Assembly: GCA_938002815.1 (NCBI GenBank)
Contig: CALKZT010000067.1
Location: 1-34,832, forward strand
DNA length: 34,832 nt
Source: an uncultured bacterium
GTDB lineage: Bacteria; Desulfobacterota; DSM-4660; Desulfatiglandales; CALKZT01
Reading direction: 5' to 3'
Each line of letters starts with the position of its first letter. The stretch's first letter is position 1. Made by a program: the position numbers and the translations under genes. A model generated the notes under the pieces. That model was not told the DNA's origin. It worked only from the letters and a program-made list of their open reading frames with translations, and made no database searches. Positions 27,740 to 34,832 of this stretch are shown here, in pieces.

Positions 27740-29725
27740 ATGGGATTGCTTTGGGATCTTGCAATAATATCTTCACTTGCAATAATTGTAATTTACTTAT
27801 GCTATAAACTTAAGGTGCCTGTAGTGGCAGCCTATCTCATCACAGGCATAATACTGGGACCAAATTGCTTTGCCCTGATAAATGACAGGGAAAGCATTGA
27901 AGGTCTCTCAGAAGTGGGTGTTATGCTCTTGCTCTTTACGATAGGCCTTGAGTTTTCATTTAAGCAGCTCTCTGCACTCAAGAGATTGATATTTCTTGGT
28001 GGCTCTCTTTATATGTTATTTTCATTTCTGTTAGGTGTTGCAATATTTCCAATCCTAATAGGAAACAAAACTTTTGGCTTATTTCTGTCACTTTTGATTA
28101 CTTTGAGTAGCACTGCTATAGTATTAAAGATCCTTCAGGATTCCATGAGGTTAGATAGTACTCATGGCAAGATAACGTTTTCAATATTGCTGTTCCAGGA
28201 TATTGCCTTTGTGCCTATCTTGGTAATTTTACCCGTTTTAGTGAATATAAACCAGATATCCTATGGTTCTTTAGGTTTTCTCCTCCTTAAGGCATTTGCA
28301 CTAATCTTGCTAACCATAATTGGATCCAAGTACCTGGTTCCATTGATCATGAATACTATAGCCAAGACTCGATTGAGGGAACTCTTTTTGCTTGCACTTC
28401 TCTCCATCTTCCTTTTGATGACCTGGGTTGCCCATATCTTGGATCTTAGCCTTGCCTTAGGGGCATTTCTGGCGGGGCTCATGTTGTCTGAGACAGAGTA
28501 TAGCCACCAGGCCCTTGCAGACTTCCTTCCTTTTAAGGATATCTTCACTAGCATCTTTTTCATATCCATAGGTATGTTGGTGGATCCATTTTACCTAATC
28601 CAAAATTATTATCTTGTGACAAAGTTGACCTTGATCGTACTTCTTATAAAGTTTTTCGCAGGGATAATCTCGACTTTTGTCATTAAATATCCCCTTAGTA
28701 TTGCACTTTTAGTGGGTGCATATCTTTGTCAAATGGGAGAATTTTCCTTTATGGTTGGTATTACAGGATCAACTTTAGGGATAATAGAAAAAAGTGAATA
28801 TGCACTTTTTCTGGATTCCGCCGTAATAACAATGATATTTGCTCCTTTTATAATTAGTTTCTCAGAAAGGTTGACTGGATTTCTTGATAAAAAAGGTTTT
28901 ACAAGTAAGTTGTTTTCGATCTCGGTCACAAAATTTGGGGCAACAGAAGATAGCTTAGGTAAATTGTCAGGACATGTAATAATAATTGGTTTTGGATTCA
29001 CAGGAAGGAATGTGGCTAAAGTTTGTAAGATTACGAATATCCCATATGTGATTGTTGAGATGAATCCTGAGACAGTAAGGAGGGAAAAAGAAAAAGAACC
29101 TATAATTTATGGAGATGCAACAAGGGAGGCCATTCTAAAGCATGTTAAGGTGTCAGAGGCAAGGATGGTGATAATTGCTGTCCCAGATCCTTTATGTGCA
29201 CAAAAGATTGTGGAGTTAGCCAGAAGAATGGCACCTTTCTTGAAGATAATAGTGAGAAATAGGTATGTGAGCCAGCATGCCCCCTTGAAAAATATAGGTG
29301 CAGATGAGGTAGTCACAGAGGAATATGAAAGTGCCGTGGCTATCCTTAGGCTGCTCATGATGGAGCTTGGGGTGGCCTTCCAGAAGATGGAAGAGTTTTT
29401 GAGCCAGATAAAGGCAGGGGGCTATAGATTTTTTGAGGCCCCTGCCCTGCTCTCCACAGATGTGTGTACAATTAATGCAGCCATTCCAGACCTTGAGATA
29501 CGGACATGGCTTGTGCCCACAGGGAGTGAGTTGGCAGGGAAAAGCATAAAGGAGCTGGAATTCAGGAGCAGATACGGCCTCAGTATCCTTGGGATAAAGA
29601 GTGATGATGCCGTATACTCAAACCCACTACCAGACCATGTAATAAAGGAGGGGGATACCTTGATCCTTGCAGGGAGTCCAAGGGACTATGCAGTGTTTCA
29701 GGAATCTGTCTTTGGTCATGGATAA
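27740..29725 (+). CDS. CPA2-family monovalent cation:proton antiporter with TrkA-N and TrkA-C domains
   Basis: Na+/H+ exchanger domain (VVAAYLITGIILGP), TrkA-N GHVIIIGFGFTGRNVAKV, C-terminal TrkA-C. Confidence 0.92.
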   Translation: MGLLWDLAIISSLAIIVIYLCYKLKVPVVAAYLITGIILGPNCFALINDRESIEGLSEVGVMLLLFTIGLEFSFKQLSALKRLIFLGGSLYMLFSFLLGVAIFPILIGNKTFGLFLSLLITLSSTAIVLKILQDSMRLDSTHGKITFSILLFQDIAFVPILVILPVLVNINQISYGSLGFLLLKAFALILLTIIGSKYLVPLIMNTIAKTRLRELFLLALLSIFLLMTWVAHILDLSLALGAFLAGLMLSETEYSHQALADFLPFKDIFTSIFFISIGMLVDPFYLIQNYYLVTKLTLIVLLIKFFAGIISTFVIKYPLSIALLVGAYLCQMGEFSFMVGITGSTLGIIEKSEYALFLDSAVITMIFAPFIISFSERLTGFLDKKGFTSKLFSISVTKFGATEDSLGKLSGHVIIIGFGFTGRNVAKVCKITNIPYVIVEMNPETVRREKEKEPIIYGDATREAILKHVKVSEARMVIIAVPDPLCAQKIVELARRMAPFLKIIVRNRYVSQHAPLKNIGADEVVTEEYESAVAILRLLMMELGVAFQKMEEFLSQIKAGGYRFFEAPALLSTDVCTINAAIPDLEIRTWLVPTGSELAGKSIKELEFRSRYGLSILGIKSDDAVYSNPLPDHVIKEGDTLILAGSPRDYAVFQESVFGHG

Positions 29726-29986: not shown

Positions 29987-30015
29987 TTGACATTTTAAAA
30001 AGGACCGATTAATGG
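29987..30015 (+). promoter_or_regulatory. probable sigma70 promoter of the aroK leader
   Basis: TTGACA (29987-29992), 17-nt spacer, TAATGG (30010-30015); immediately upstream of the attenuator leader. Confidence 0.5.
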
Positions 30016-30038
30016 TTTGGCTGTAAATGGGAGATGAG

Positions 30039-30116
30039 ATGGTAAGGTCAACCGGGCACAACGGACAGCTGAATTTCTGGTATTACTTTAGCAGTGGAGG
30101 TGTGCCCAGGGGCTGA
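30039..30116 (+). CDS. aromatic leader peptide of the aroK-aroC attenuator (25 aa: MVRSTGHNGQLNFWYYFSSGGVPRG)
   Basis: Short ORF with five consecutive Phe-Trp-Tyr-Tyr-Phe codons (30075-30089), GGGAG SD-like sequence 5 nt upstream; followed by antiterminator/terminator. Confidence 0.8.
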   Translation: MVRSTGHNGQLNFWYYFSSGGVPRG

Positions 30117-30152
30117 GCCTTACCCTAAACTATCCAAGGCCATGGGCACACC
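30054..30152 (+). promoter_or_regulatory. transcription attenuator: protector (1:2) and antiterminator (2:3) pairings
   Basis: 1:2 GGGCACA (30054-30060)/TGTGCCC (30101-30107); 2:3 GGTGTGCCCA (30099-30108)/TGGGCACACC (30143-30152). Confidence 0.8.
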
Positions 30153-30176
30153 AGTTGCCCATGGCCTTTTTGTTTT
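30136..30176 (+). terminator. intrinsic terminator of the aroK attenuator (3:4)
   Basis: AAGGCCATGGGC-ACACCAGTT-GCCCATGGCCTT (12-bp stem) followed by TTTTTGTTTT. Confidence 0.9.
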
Positions 30177-30185
30177 GGAGGAGAG

Positions 30186-30716
30186 ATGAATATTGTGCTC
30201 ATAGGTTGCAGGGCCGTTGGAAAGACATCCATCGGAAGCCTTCTGGCTCAAGAGCTCAACATGACCTTTGTGGATACGGACCAGTTGTTAGAAGAAAGGC
30301 TGGGGGAAAGTATAGGTTCCTATGTTAAGAGACACGGCTGGGAGGCCATGAGGATGTTAGAGTCGGAAGTTTTGAGATCGTTGCTGGGGATTCAAAACCA
30401 CGTAATTGCCACAGGTGGAGGCTGTGTGGAATCACCAGAAAATCAGAGGCTTTTGAGGTCCTTGGGCCATGTGGTATGGATAAAGGCCCCATCTTCTAAG
30501 ATCCTTGAACGCTTAATTAACGGGCATAGACCCCCGCTGACCTCCTTTGACCCCAAGACGGAACTGGAACTTATACTCAAAAGGAGGAATCCCCTTTACC
30601 TCAAGGCGGCGGATGTGGTCCTGGATACAGGCGAGCTTGGGGTCTTGGAGGCCACCAGGATATTGAAGTTGGCCGTAAATAACCTCAGGAAGGGGTCAAT
30701 ACATGCCGGGCAATAG
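30186..30716 (+). CDS. aroK: shikimate kinase
   Basis: IVLIGCRAVGKTSIGSLLAQEL, FVDTDQLLEERLG, IATGGGCVES. Confidence 0.94.
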   Translation: MNIVLIGCRAVGKTSIGSLLAQELNMTFVDTDQLLEERLGESIGSYVKRHGWEAMRMLESEVLRSLLGIQNHVIATGGGCVESPENQRLLRSLGHVVWIKAPSSKILERLINGHRPPLTSFDPKTELELILKRRNPLYLKAADVVLDTGELGVLEATRILKLAVNNLRKGSIHAGQ

Positions 30717-31830
30717 TTTTGGCCAGGCCTTCAGGGTTACCACCTTTGGGGAGAGCCATGGACCTGGCTTGGGGGCGACTATAGACGGCTGCCCACCGGG
30801 TATAGGCCTCTCTCCCCAAGATTTCTTGGAACCCCTTTTTAGAAGGAGGCCTGGTAGGGGGATCTCCTCTTCCCTTAGAAAGGAAGAGGACCTTGTGGAG
30901 ATTGTCTCCGGGGTATTTGAGGGAAGGACGACAGGGTGCCCGATTACCCTTCTGGTCAAAAACCAGGATCAGAGGCCTGGGGACTACGAGCCATTAAGGC
31001 ACATATTTAGGCCAGGTCATGCAGACATAACCTACCACCTAAAGTACGGCCTACGTGATCACAGAGGAGGGGGAAGGGCCTCTTCCAGGGAGACCGTTGG
31101 GAGGGTCTTGGCTGGTGTGGTGGCCCAAAAGATACTCGAGCCATTGGGGGTAAAGGTCCTCGCCTTTACTGTGGAACTTGCCGGGATAAAGGCAGAGGAA
31201 AGGGACCCTGAGGTGGCTCTTCAAAACCCCTTTCGATGGGGAGACAAAAGGGCACTGCCTTTGATAGAAAAGGCGATCTTGGAGGCCAGGGAGGCAAAGG
31301 ACTCCTTGGGAGGGATTGTGGAAATAGTGGCCAAAAATGTCCCACCTGGGTTGGGAGAGCCTGTATTTGATAAGCTGGATGCAGACCTTGCAAAGGCCAT
31401 CCTCTCTGTGGGCGCCGTAAAAGGGGTTGAGTTTGGAAGGGGATTTGAGGCAGCCAGGATTAGGGGATCCCAAAACAATGACCCCATCTACCGAAGAAAG
31501 GGTGCCGTAGGATTGTGCCCGGGATATCTCTCCAACAATGCCGGAGGGATCTTAGGAGGTATCTCAAATGGGGATGAAATTGTGATACGTGCAGCAATAA
31601 AACCAATCCCTTCAATAGGCCTCAGACAAGAGACGATAGACTCTCATGGAAACCCCATAGAAATTGCACTTGAAGGGAGATTTGATGTCTGTGCGATCCC
31701 AAGGATACTACCTGTTTTGGAGGCAATGGTTTCAATAGTCTTGGCCGACCACCTGCTTAGGCAAAGGGCTATTTTGCATGAGCCATTCTCATCGAGTCCG
31801 GCCTTTCTACCACGAGGCAAGGAATGCTAA
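30703..31830 (+). CDS. aroC: chorismate synthase
   Basis: TFGESHGPGLGATIDGCPPGI, GGGRASSRETVGRVLAG, GNP.E.ALEGRFDVCAIPR. Confidence 0.97.
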   Translation: MPGNSFGQAFRVTTFGESHGPGLGATIDGCPPGIGLSPQDFLEPLFRRRPGRGISSSLRKEEDLVEIVSGVFEGRTTGCPITLLVKNQDQRPGDYEPLRHIFRPGHADITYHLKYGLRDHRGGGRASSRETVGRVLAGVVAQKILEPLGVKVLAFTVELAGIKAEERDPEVALQNPFRWGDKRALPLIEKAILEAREAKDSLGGIVEIVAKNVPPGLGEPVFDKLDADLAKAILSVGAVKGVEFGRGFEAARIRGSQNNDPIYRRKGAVGLCPGYLSNNAGGILGGISNGDEIVIRAAIKPIPSIGLRQETIDSHGNPIEIALEGRFDVCAIPRILPVLEAMVSIVLADHLLRQRAILHEPFSSSPAFLPRGKEC

Positions 31831-32021
31831 AGGGGACCCTCTTTGGCCTTTCACATAGGATGAGCCAGCGCCATTTTGGCTTTGGGTATTTTTATTGGAA
31901 GAGACCTCCACCTGCGACCTTCAGCTATGTATGGCCGCAGGTGGATAAGACCTGCGGCATTTTTGTTTTTAAAAACCATTTATCAAAATCGAAAGCCATT
32001 CAAAAGGGGGAATGTGAATGA
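31824..32021 (+). CDS. aromatic-rich leader ORF upstream of the ADTH synthase gene (alternative start ATG 31860)
   Basis: [49 protein letters not shown]...; ATG overlaps the aroC stop (ATGCTAA), and its TGA overlaps the downstream ATG (ATGA). Confidence 0.65.
31907..31970 (+). terminator. attenuator with mutually exclusive antiterminator and intrinsic terminator upstream of ADTH synthase
   Basis: Antiterminator TCCACCTGCG (31907-31916)/CGCAGGTGGA (31936-31945); terminator GCCGCAGGT (31934-31942)/ACCTGCGGC (31950-31958) then ATTTTTGTTTTT. Confidence 0.85.
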
Positions 32022-32842
32022 CCGGGAAATCAATCAGGCTTGAGAGGATACTAAATCCAAAGACAGGGAAGACGGTGATAATCCCCATGGACCATGGCGT
32101 TACCATGGGGCCCATAAACGGCATTGACAAGATTCGTGATGCCGTTTCCGCTGCCTCATTGGGTGGTGCAGATGGGGTTGTCTTGCACAAGGGGATGGTC
32201 AAGGCAATATCCGGGATCTTTAATCCTCACTTGGCCCTTATTTTGCACCTCTCTGCCAGCACAACTCTTTCCCCAACACCCTTGAAGAAATCATTGGTAT
32301 CCAGTGTAGAGGAGGCAGTCAGGTTGGGTGCCGACTGTGTCTCTGTGCATGTGAACATCGGAAATGCCCACGAAAAAGAGATGCTAAGGGATTTAAGCAG
32401 GGTTTCCAGGGAGGCAGAGTCGTGGGGACTTCCCCTCCTGGCCATGATCTACCCGAGGGGGGAGAGGGTGAAGGACGAATACGACCCAAATCTCATAGCC
32501 CATGCAGCAAGGTTAGGGGCTGAATTAGGTGCTGATATCGTAAAGGTTTCATACACTGGAGACCCCGAAAGTTTTGGAAAGGTAGTGGAAGGTACACCTG
32601 TGCCTGTGGTGATAGCAGGGGGACCTAAGATGGACTCAGACCTAGAGGTCTTAAAGATGGTGAAAGAGGCCATCGATGCTGGAGCTAAAGGGACCTCTAT
32701 TGGCAGAAACGTCTTTCAGCACCCCTTCCCAGCCCTTATGTGCAAGGCCATTTCTTCAATAGTCCATGAAAACAAGGGGGTGGAGGAGGCAGCGGAGATA
32801 TTATGGCAAGGGGAGGATTGGAAGGATGCCCAATGCTGCTAA
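32018..32842 (+). CDS. 2-amino-3,7-dideoxy-D-threo-hept-6-ulosonate (ADTH) synthase, archaeal-type shikimate entry enzyme
   Basis: Class I aldolase of FBA/ADTH synthase family: [45 protein letters not shown]; adjacent aromatic genes and DHQ synthase II. Confidence 0.9.
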
Positions 32843-33920
32843 AGAAGACAAGTTGACCGAATCGCTGAGGGAAAAGATAGATCAACTGGATGAGAAGATC
32901 TGCTCCCTTTTGTTAGAGAGGATCGAGATATCCAAAGAGATTGGGGAGATAAAGAAGAGGAGAGGCGAAGCTTACTACGATCCTTCAAGGGAGACGGAGG
33001 TGTTGGAAAGGGTCTCAATCACAGTAAGAGATCCTAAGGTTCGCAGGGGGCTCAAGGGTATCTTCAACGAGATAATATCATTATCCAGGGCCGTGCAGGC
33101 AGGGCATAAGATTTACTACCTTGGTCCTGAAGGGAGTTTTTGCCATAGGGCCGTCACCTATGCACTGGGGAGTGCGGCCCCTAGGGTTTCCTGCTCTGAT
33201 GTAGAGGAGGTGTTCCATAAGGCCTCTTCAGATGAAGATTCCTTAGGAATAGTACCCTTGGAAAACAGCATAGAAGGCCCTATCGGCCAGGCATACGATC
33301 TGTTGGCAGAGAGCGATCTACTTGTTCAACGAGAGGTGTTTCTACCTATAGGGCTCTCCCTCCTGGGGAGTACTCAGGCAACAAAAAGGGCAAAAAGGCT
33401 TTTTAGCCACCCTGTTGCCCTTGCCCAGGCAAGGCCGTGGATAAGGAAGAATCTATCCTCGGTGGAGGTTGTGGGTGTCCTTAGCACATCCCATGCAGCT
33501 CTTTTGGCCTTGGAGGACGGGGAGGCCCTTGCCATCGCCACGAAGGAGTGTGGAGAGCTCTATGGCTTAAAGGTCATCATAGAAGATATCCCTCTGCGTG
33601 AGAGATCTTGGACAAGGTTTGTCATCCTTGGGAGGCAGGTCCCAAAGCCTACGGGCAAGGACAAGACCTCTGTCTATTTTACACTCCCTCATCGCCCCGG
33701 GACCCTAAGGAGGGCCTTAGAGTCCTTCTCCGATTCAATAAACCTCTGCCTCATATTTTCAAGGCCCCTTAAGGGGAGAGAGTGGGAATACGGCTTTTTC
33801 TTAGACTTGGAAGGCCATATCAATGACCCGAGCGTTTGGGTGGCATTGGATTCCCTCCAGAGACAGAGTGTCACTTACAAATTTCTGGGCTCTTATAGAA
33901 GGGCATGGCCATGCTTATAG
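32826..33920 (+). CDS. pheA: bifunctional chorismate mutase/prephenate dehydratase
   Basis: AroQ-type chorismate mutase [47 protein letters not shown]-terminal ACT domain. ATG 32826 preferred over 32766. Confidence 0.94.
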
Positions 33921-34717
33921 GGCCAGATACAAGGATAGGAATAATAGGCGCTGAAGGCAGGATGGGTAGCTTTCTTGTAAGCCTTTCAAGGGAGAAAGGC
34001 TTGGAGGTCTTGCTGGCAGACAAAGGGGTGGGAGATGTTGCGTCTCTTGCAAGGAGTTCTGACCTAATAATACTTGCAATTCCATTTTATGCCATGGATG
34101 AACTTTTGAGGTCCATCGGAGGCCTTATCCGTCCCGAGGCCCTGCTTATGGACATCACCTCCATCAAGATAAGGCCCTTAAAGCTCATGCTAAAGACTAC
34201 CTCCTGTAATGTGGTAGGGGCCCATCCCCTCTTTGGCCCAGAGTCCTTTGATGAAGATGGGCTTGGGGTCATACTGTGCCCGGGTAGGGGTAATGATTCC
34301 CTGAAGATGGCAAGGGCCTTTTGGGAGACTCTTGGATTACAGGTCCATTTATCCAGTGCCGAAGAGCACGATAGGATCATGGGGATTGTACAAGGGGTCT
34401 TTCATGGAATTGCCTTTTCAATGGCGGACTGTTTGGCCAACATGTGCAGCTTAGAGAGGAAAAAGCTAAGAGAACAGAGCACTTTCAATTTTTTGATCAT
34501 GCTGAAAAGGATTAAGGCATTAGTCTTTCAGCCTTCTTTTCTCTACGAGACCATATTTTTTGAGAATCCATTCGCCATAGACAGTATAGAGGCATTTATA
34601 AGGAGTCTAAACGAGTTAAGAGATTGGATCAAAAAGGACGACAGAGAGTCCTTCAGGAGCGAGATAAATAAAATAAAAGAGGTTTTGGGCCATGAAACAA
34701 GTTTGGGTCAAGATTAG
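33905..34717 (+). CDS. tyrA: prephenate dehydrogenase
   Basis: IGIIGAEGRMGSFLVSL, MDITSIK, VVGAHPLFGPES; overlaps pheA by 16 nt. Confidence 0.9.
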   Translation: MAMLIGPDTRIGIIGAEGRMGSFLVSLSREKGLEVLLADKGVGDVASLARSSDLIILAIPFYAMDELLRSIGGLIRPEALLMDITSIKIRPLKLMLKTTSCNVVGAHPLFGPESFDEDGLGVILCPGRGNDSLKMARAFWETLGLQVHLSSAEEHDRIMGIVQGVFHGIAFSMADCLANMCSLERKKLREQSTFNFLIMLKRIKALVFQPSFLYETIFFENPFAIDSIEAFIRSLNELRDWIKKDDRESFRSEINKIKEVLGHETSLGQD

Positions 34718-34832
34718 GAATTGGGATAAGGATATAATCCTTTCTGCTATTGAGTCAGGTGCAGATGCGGTCTGGATAGATGGTGCATATGTCCAGGAGG
34801 CCAAAAAGCTTGGAAGAATTCCTATTATAGCA
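34692..34832 (+). CDS. 3-dehydroquinate synthase II (archaeal type), 3' truncated by window edge
   Basis: MKQVWVKIRNWDKDIILSAIESGADAVWIDGAYVQEAKKLGRIPIIA matches the DHQS II N-terminus; not in the supplied ORF track. Confidence 0.85.
   Translation, partial: MKQVWVKIRNWDKDIILSAIESGADAVWIDGAYVQEAKKLGRIPIIA

Follow-up and report, generated by a model that had tools for sequence, protein, structure and literature searches.

A putative trp/phe-type attenuator with codons for all three aromatic amino acids upstream of aroK in an uncultured member of the Desulfobacterota

Introduction

Attenuators in which one leader reads more than one end product of a common pathway are known from gammaproteobacteria, namely those of ilvGMEDA (Ile/Val/Leu) and thr (Thr/Ile). 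Sensing of several end products is also proposed for the leader described here (leader 1), but ilvGMEDA and thr respond to branched-chain amino acids or threonine and not to aromatic amino acids.

The leaders trpL and pheL of E. coli consist of an open reading frame (ORF) with control codons, the alternative pairings 1:2, 2:3 and 3:4, a stop codon located after region 2 and a U-tract (PMC11802643). All of these elements are found in leader 1. However, trpL and pheL each read one amino acid and control one terminal branch, whereas leader 1 contains codons for three amino acids and precedes genes of the common pathway. Moreover, region 1 is located on the control codons in trpL and pheL and upstream of them in leader 1. 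In the C. glutamicum aroR-aroF attenuator (Neshat et al. 2014) the leader contains Phe-Tyr-Phe, and only Phe limitation is reported to act in the account given in PMC11802643. This system resembles leader 1 in that an aromatic leader peptide precedes a common-pathway gene (DAHP synthase), but it is without a Trp codon, belongs to another phylum and precedes another gene, and the likeness drawn here is one of description. The uORFC-13-1 motif before aroF, found in Acholeplasma and environmental sequences only, was proposed to consist of an upstream ORF with Phe codon(s) and a terminator (PMC8632094). It also precedes a shikimate-pathway gene, but a different one, and has codons for Phe only. 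The main texts of the delta-proteobacterial survey of Rodionov 2004 (PMC545781) and of the terminator survey of Naville and Gautheret 2010 (PMC2965389) contain no aroK or aromatic leader. Within this comparison, outside which the older surveys Vitreschak 2004 and Panina 2001 lie, an aroK leader across this order seems to be undescribed.

The window analyzed here is a stretch of 34,832 nucleotides from an uncultured bacterium of the order Desulfatiglandales (assembly GCA_938002815.1, contig CALKZT010000067.1). An initial annotation of its letters had proposed a ribosome-mediated attenuator upstream of aroK-aroC.

Results

Leader ORF 1, read from the sequence, comprises 25 codons between the ATG at 30039 and the TGA at 30114-30116 (Table 1), and re-reading confirmed the coordinates of the ORF and of the run of five aromatic codons that had been proposed at the outset. 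This short translatable ORF combines a run of end-product codons with a ribosome binding site and is kept in relatives; translation of 30039-30116 is predicted. The candidate -35 box is accompanied by a weak -10 element (TTAATG/ATTAAT, about 30008-30014). A consensus promoter scan did not call the TTGACA box at 29987..29992, and an exact TTGACA was present at most 60 nt upstream of the leader in six of 12 other aroK leaders inspected. An aromatic-rich ORF (at least five aromatic codons in eight) followed by a terminator occurred once in the real window and in none of 60 dinucleotide-shuffled versions of it, searched on both strands.

Table 1. Coordinates of the two leaders, their predicted RNA elements and the downstream genes in the window.
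Feature	Coordinates	Strand	Evidence
Candidate -35 box TTGACA	29987..29992	+	seen directly
Shine-Dalgarno-like GGGAG, 5 nt 5' of leader ATG	30029..30033	+	seen directly
Leader peptide 1, MVRSTGHNGQLNFWYYFSSGGVPRG, followed by stop	30039..30116	+	orthologous peptides upstream of aroK in relatives
Region 1 (GGTAAGG...GGGCACA), partners 30101-30107 and 30118-30124	30041..30060	+	folding, 43 aroK leaders
Control codons TTC TGG TAT TAC TTT (F W Y Y F), codons 13-17	30075..30089	+	seen directly
Region 2, GGTGTGCCCA, encodes GVPR (relatives GLPM)	30099..30108	+	2:3 covariation
Predicted intrinsic terminator 1 (3:4), 13-bp stem 30136-30168, then TTTGTTTT 30169-30176	30136..30176	+	terminator call, covariation
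Region 3, TGGGCACACC, 3' arm of the antiterminator; shares positions with the 5' arm and loop of the terminator	30143..30152	+	folding, covariation
aroK, shikimate kinase	30186..30716	+	PF01202 E=5e-41
aroC, chorismate synthase	30703..31830	+	PF01264, TIGR00033
Leader ORF 2, no stop before terminator 2; TGA overlaps ADTH synthase ATG	31860..32021	+	sequence, held-out model
Leader 2 aromatic codons F-G-F-G-Y-F-Y-W	31875..31898	+	sequence
Antiterminator 2 arms TCCACCTGCG (31907-31916) and CGCAGGTGGA (31936-31945)	31907..31945	+	sequence, folding
Terminator 2, GCCGCAGGT/ACCTGCGGC, then ATTTTTGTTTT	31934..31969	+	terminator call
ADTH synthase (2-amino-3,7-dideoxy-D-threo-hept-6-ulosonate synthase)	32018..32842	+	TIGR01949 350 bits, over cut-off
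pheA, chorismate mutase/prephenate dehydratase	32766..33920	+	PF00800 and PF01817
tyrA, prephenate dehydrogenase	33905..34717	+	PF02153 and PF20463
DHQ synthase II start, cut by contig end	34692..34832	+	PF01959 E=3e-5, above gathering score

The three alternative pairings 1:2, 2:3 and 3:4 of the initial annotation are all present in the sequence, as are the spacing of 9 nt between the last aromatic codon and the start of region 2 and the position of the leader stop after region 2, although two of the stems had been described too short. The 3:4 stem with its U-tract was borne out but has 13 bp instead of 12, and the 1:2 stem contains, in addition to the pairing of GGGCACA (30054-30060), that of GGTAAGG (30041-30047) with CCTTACC (30118-30124). 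The 2:3 antiterminator and the 3:4 terminator have region 3 in common and are mutually exclusive. The calculated energies are -33.0 kcal/mol for the 1:2 hairpin, -26.2 kcal/mol for the 2:3 hairpin and -24.8 kcal/mol for the 3:4 terminator. The stop codon starts 6 nt past the end of region 2, a placement in which a terminating ribosome would cover region 2, and the intrinsic terminator precedes the first structural gene, ending 10 nt upstream of aroK. The 1:2 anti-antiterminator lies inside the leader ORF, where its masking by a stalled ribosome would be only partial.

Comparison of the coordinates of aroK matches with those of model matches placed the element directly upstream of aroK in 30 of 35 genomes of the order in which aroK was clearly matched, this genome counted and relatives being compared no closer than at the level of order. 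A covariance model built from 23 relatives, with the window left out, found the window leader with 70.3 bits (E=1.2e-13), making it a held-out match to a Desulfobacterota aroK leader family defined here (models R1/R2). A model-free scan of the relatives' loci for an aromatic-rich ORF with a terminator mostly returned leaders before aroK, ADTH synthase or DAHP synthase. Leader peptides of relatives such as MISNQSWQSYYWFYFSGRGLPMD end with GLPMD, compared to GVPRG in the window, and this stretch is the coding part that forms region 2. The distance from stop codon to terminator was 18-24 nt in 42 of 43 aroK leaders. Since orthologous elements occur upstream of aroK, a chance origin is excluded.

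Covariation was assessed in a sequence-only alignment of 42 aroK leaders. In the 3:4 terminator stem 92.7% of cells were paired, with two-sided changes in eight of 13 pairs; the corresponding values for the 2:3 antiterminator were 85.1% and five of 12 pairs. When the partner was slid by one to three columns, pairing fell to about 26-54% and 33-45% for the two stems. The number of 2:3 pairs with two-sided changes was reached in 81 of 500 shuffles and is not exceptional alone, and the cell-level measures of this stem were reached in none of the 500. The 1:2 hairpin between the 5' part of the leader and region 2 was predicted in all 43 aroK leaders, and in 40 of these the cognate pairing exceeded the mean swapped pairing, a test that still contains the kinship of the sequences. 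Upstream of aroK in related genomes, both the run of aromatic codons and the alternative stems are thus conserved and covarying, and this is the comparison by which the initial annotation was to be judged.

These data also bear on the simpler explanation that the hairpin merely terminates an upstream transcript and that the short ORF is accidental. Terminators are common after genes, and a strong one is indeed situated between a kefB-like gene and aroK. However, about 410 nt separate the hairpin from the preceding gene, whose end is at 29725, and the terminator stands at a fixed distance from an aromatic-rich ORF in about 40 genomes. Moreover, region 2 covaries with the terminator arm, for which a plain terminator has no need. 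This explanation is highly improbable and was rejected because of the covariation of region 2 with region 3.

T-boxes and riboswitches also use leaders with terminator and antiterminator. A leader binding a protein or a metabolite (T-box, TRAP-like or riboswitch), instead of one read by a translating ribosome, would fit this general layout. However, none of the 4227 Rfam families matched the window at gathering score, and at a relaxed threshold (E up to 10) there were only two weak, irrelevant matches. Furthermore, what is conserved is the coding frame, the aromatic codons and a GxPM motif, and the codon content tracks the product of the downstream gene. There is very little probability left for a ligand-binding leader, and the translating ribosome is retained as the reader.

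In order to follow the switch in a growing transcript, only RNA downstream of the ribosome was allowed to fold. With a ribosome stalled at F75, W78, Y81, Y84 or F87, 2:3 was formed over about 12 bp, and 3:4 was absent until RNA beyond about 30162 was out; by then the polymerase would have reached or passed the end of the U-tract, assuming that it covers ~14 nt of RNA. With the ribosome at the stop codon or absent, 3:4 was formed. Folding of the whole leader at equilibrium with a masked ribosome was discarded in favor of this calculation, as it did not separate the states: with region 4 present, 3:4 was favored in every case, and 1:2 can pair across the ribosome. Because 3:4 wins at full equilibrium even with a stalled ribosome, antitermination must be kinetic.

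According to the proposed mechanism, with plentiful charged tRNAs the ribosome would reach the stop codon at 30114-30116 and cover region 2, so that the 3:4 terminator would form before aroK. A stall at any codon of the FWYYF run would leave region 2 free and keep region 1 away from it; 2:3 would then form ahead of the emergence of region 4 and RNA polymerase would pass the U-tract. If no ribosome is loaded, 1:2 would form and 3:4 would terminate. Termination in vivo would be expected at 30136-30176. Geometrically, this scheme is weakest in the masking of region 1 by a stalled ribosome. Region 1 precedes the aromatic codons by 15-34 nt; a ribosome stalled late would therefore sit between regions 1 and 2 and block 1:2 by its position, but 1:2 persists in folding if pairs across the ribosome are allowed.

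The initial annotation had named aroK-aroC as the target. Both genes are located downstream, but the operon is longer and continues with ADTH synthase, pheA, tyrA and DHQ synthase II. The order aroK-aroC-ADTH synthase-pheA-tyrA recurs in three loci of relatives (L032, L041 and L057). A PDB search of the 47-aa fragment returned weak, irrelevant matches only. The bacterial operon at 32018-34832 has an archaeal-type entry into the shikimate pathway, with ADTH synthase and DHQ synthase II.

A second attenuator-like element, absent from the initial annotation, was found between aroC and ADTH synthase (31860-31969). Model R3, which represents the family of second leaders before ADTH synthase/DAHP synthase and was built from relatives with the window left out, matched 31875-31968 with 32 bits (E=1.2e-5). 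Relatives carry leaders at the same position between aroC and ADTH synthase, and their 2:3 stem covaries. In leader 2 of the window no in-frame stop was found between region 2 and the terminator, the frame being open through the terminator; most of the second leaders of relatives stop 3-19 nt before the terminator, and two run into it. This second, related attenuator probably serves as a further checkpoint ahead of the distal genes.

Among 398 sampled genomes of the phylum, 70 had a match at E up to 1e-7. The genes downstream of the matches encode DAHP synthases (three types), AroK, ADTH synthase, class I aminotransferases, CoA ligases, metallo-beta-lactamase-fold proteins, a periplasmic binding protein and indolepyruvate oxidoreductase alpha (IorA). 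Phe, Tyr and Trp codons were all present in 93% of 42 aroK leaders and in 92-94% of the leaders of two DAHP synthase classes, Trp was present in none of the 13 class I aminotransferase leaders, and the two IorA leaders had a mean of five Trp and hardly any Phe or Tyr. Because aromatic runs are what the model selects for, the abundance of Phe and Tyr is in part a product of the search, which does not hold for the difference in Trp between the gene classes. Judged from the predicted peptides, the codon content of the leader follows the product of the downstream gene.

Several groups of leaders were observed within this set. The aminotransferase leaders with Phe/Tyr only include L208, L213, L216, L218, L221, L223, L224, L225, L249 and L250. 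The Trp-rich leaders FWGWWWW and NWWRWWW, with a terminator, precede indolepyruvate ferredoxin oxidoreductase alpha (L265:201-294 and L268:201-286). Aromatic leaders mostly without Trp codons stand before a metallo-beta-lactamase-fold gene (L137, L155, L160, L176, L188, L194, L203 and L209). Tandem aromatic leaders with terminators are located before one gene in L156, L161, L162, L170, L227, L232 and L234, the gene being ADTH synthase, CoA ligase or unassigned.

From its codons, leader 1 would respond to each of Phe, Trp and Tyr. It is possible, although we regard it as rather unlikely, that the attenuator is real and effectively senses Phe and/or Tyr only, with the lone Trp codon being incidental or part of a pairing sequence. 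The FWYYF run contains one Trp codon against four Phe/Tyr codons, and the conserved Trp codon (SWQ) of most relatives lies in the region-1 pairing stretch. In the account of PMC11802643, C. glutamicum AroR contains a Tyr codon with no measured Tyr effect. In addition, a search of the genome, which is 90.7% complete, found no Chorismate_bind gene (PF00425; TrpE/PabB/MenF type) and none for IGPS (PF00218), and the one indication of TrpB was a match that stayed under the curated cut-off. The Trp branch may accordingly be absent; the missing Trp synthesis genes reflect either Trp auxotrophy or missing contigs. Against restriction to Phe and/or Tyr, the Trp codon of the window lies within the aromatic run, not in region 1, and the calculated switch is the same for a ribosome stalled at this codon. 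Furthermore, the frequency of Trp codons in aroK leaders stands against their lack in aminotransferase leaders of the same architecture. A joint reading of the three amino acids is kept as the working model.

Discussion

At the level of sequence, leader 1 carries every feature of a trp/phe-type attenuator that can be tested there. The conservation, the covariation, the codon content and the flip between folding states point to ribosome-mediated attenuation of this type, in agreement with the initial annotation, whose reading is supported by the conserved codon run and the covarying alternative pairings in relatives. Ribosome-mediated attenuation by leader 1 is very likely on the basis of sequence, conservation, covariation and calculated switch behavior. 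With high confidence, leader 1 is interpreted as a transcription attenuator that would read charged tRNA-Phe, tRNA-Trp and tRNA-Tyr together and set the transcription of the aromatic operon.

With regard to the whole phylum, we lean toward a regulon controlled by leader peptides and no repressor, in which one architecture would precede DAHP synthases, aroK, ADTH synthase, aminotransferases and indolepyruvate oxidoreductase, the choice among Phe, Tyr and Trp as the amino acids sensed would follow from the codons of each leader, and some operons, including this one, would have two attenuators in series.

The predicted coverage of all three aromatic amino acids by one leader is an uncommon trait: a single peptide of 25 residues seems to combine the signals of all three end products and to govern the part of the pathway that they share. 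The leaders form a natural series in which the codon content changes with the downstream gene, so that the way in which an attenuator weighs several amino acids becomes testable. Since Rfam is without such a family, the leader family described here offers a ready annotation for Desulfobacterota genomes.
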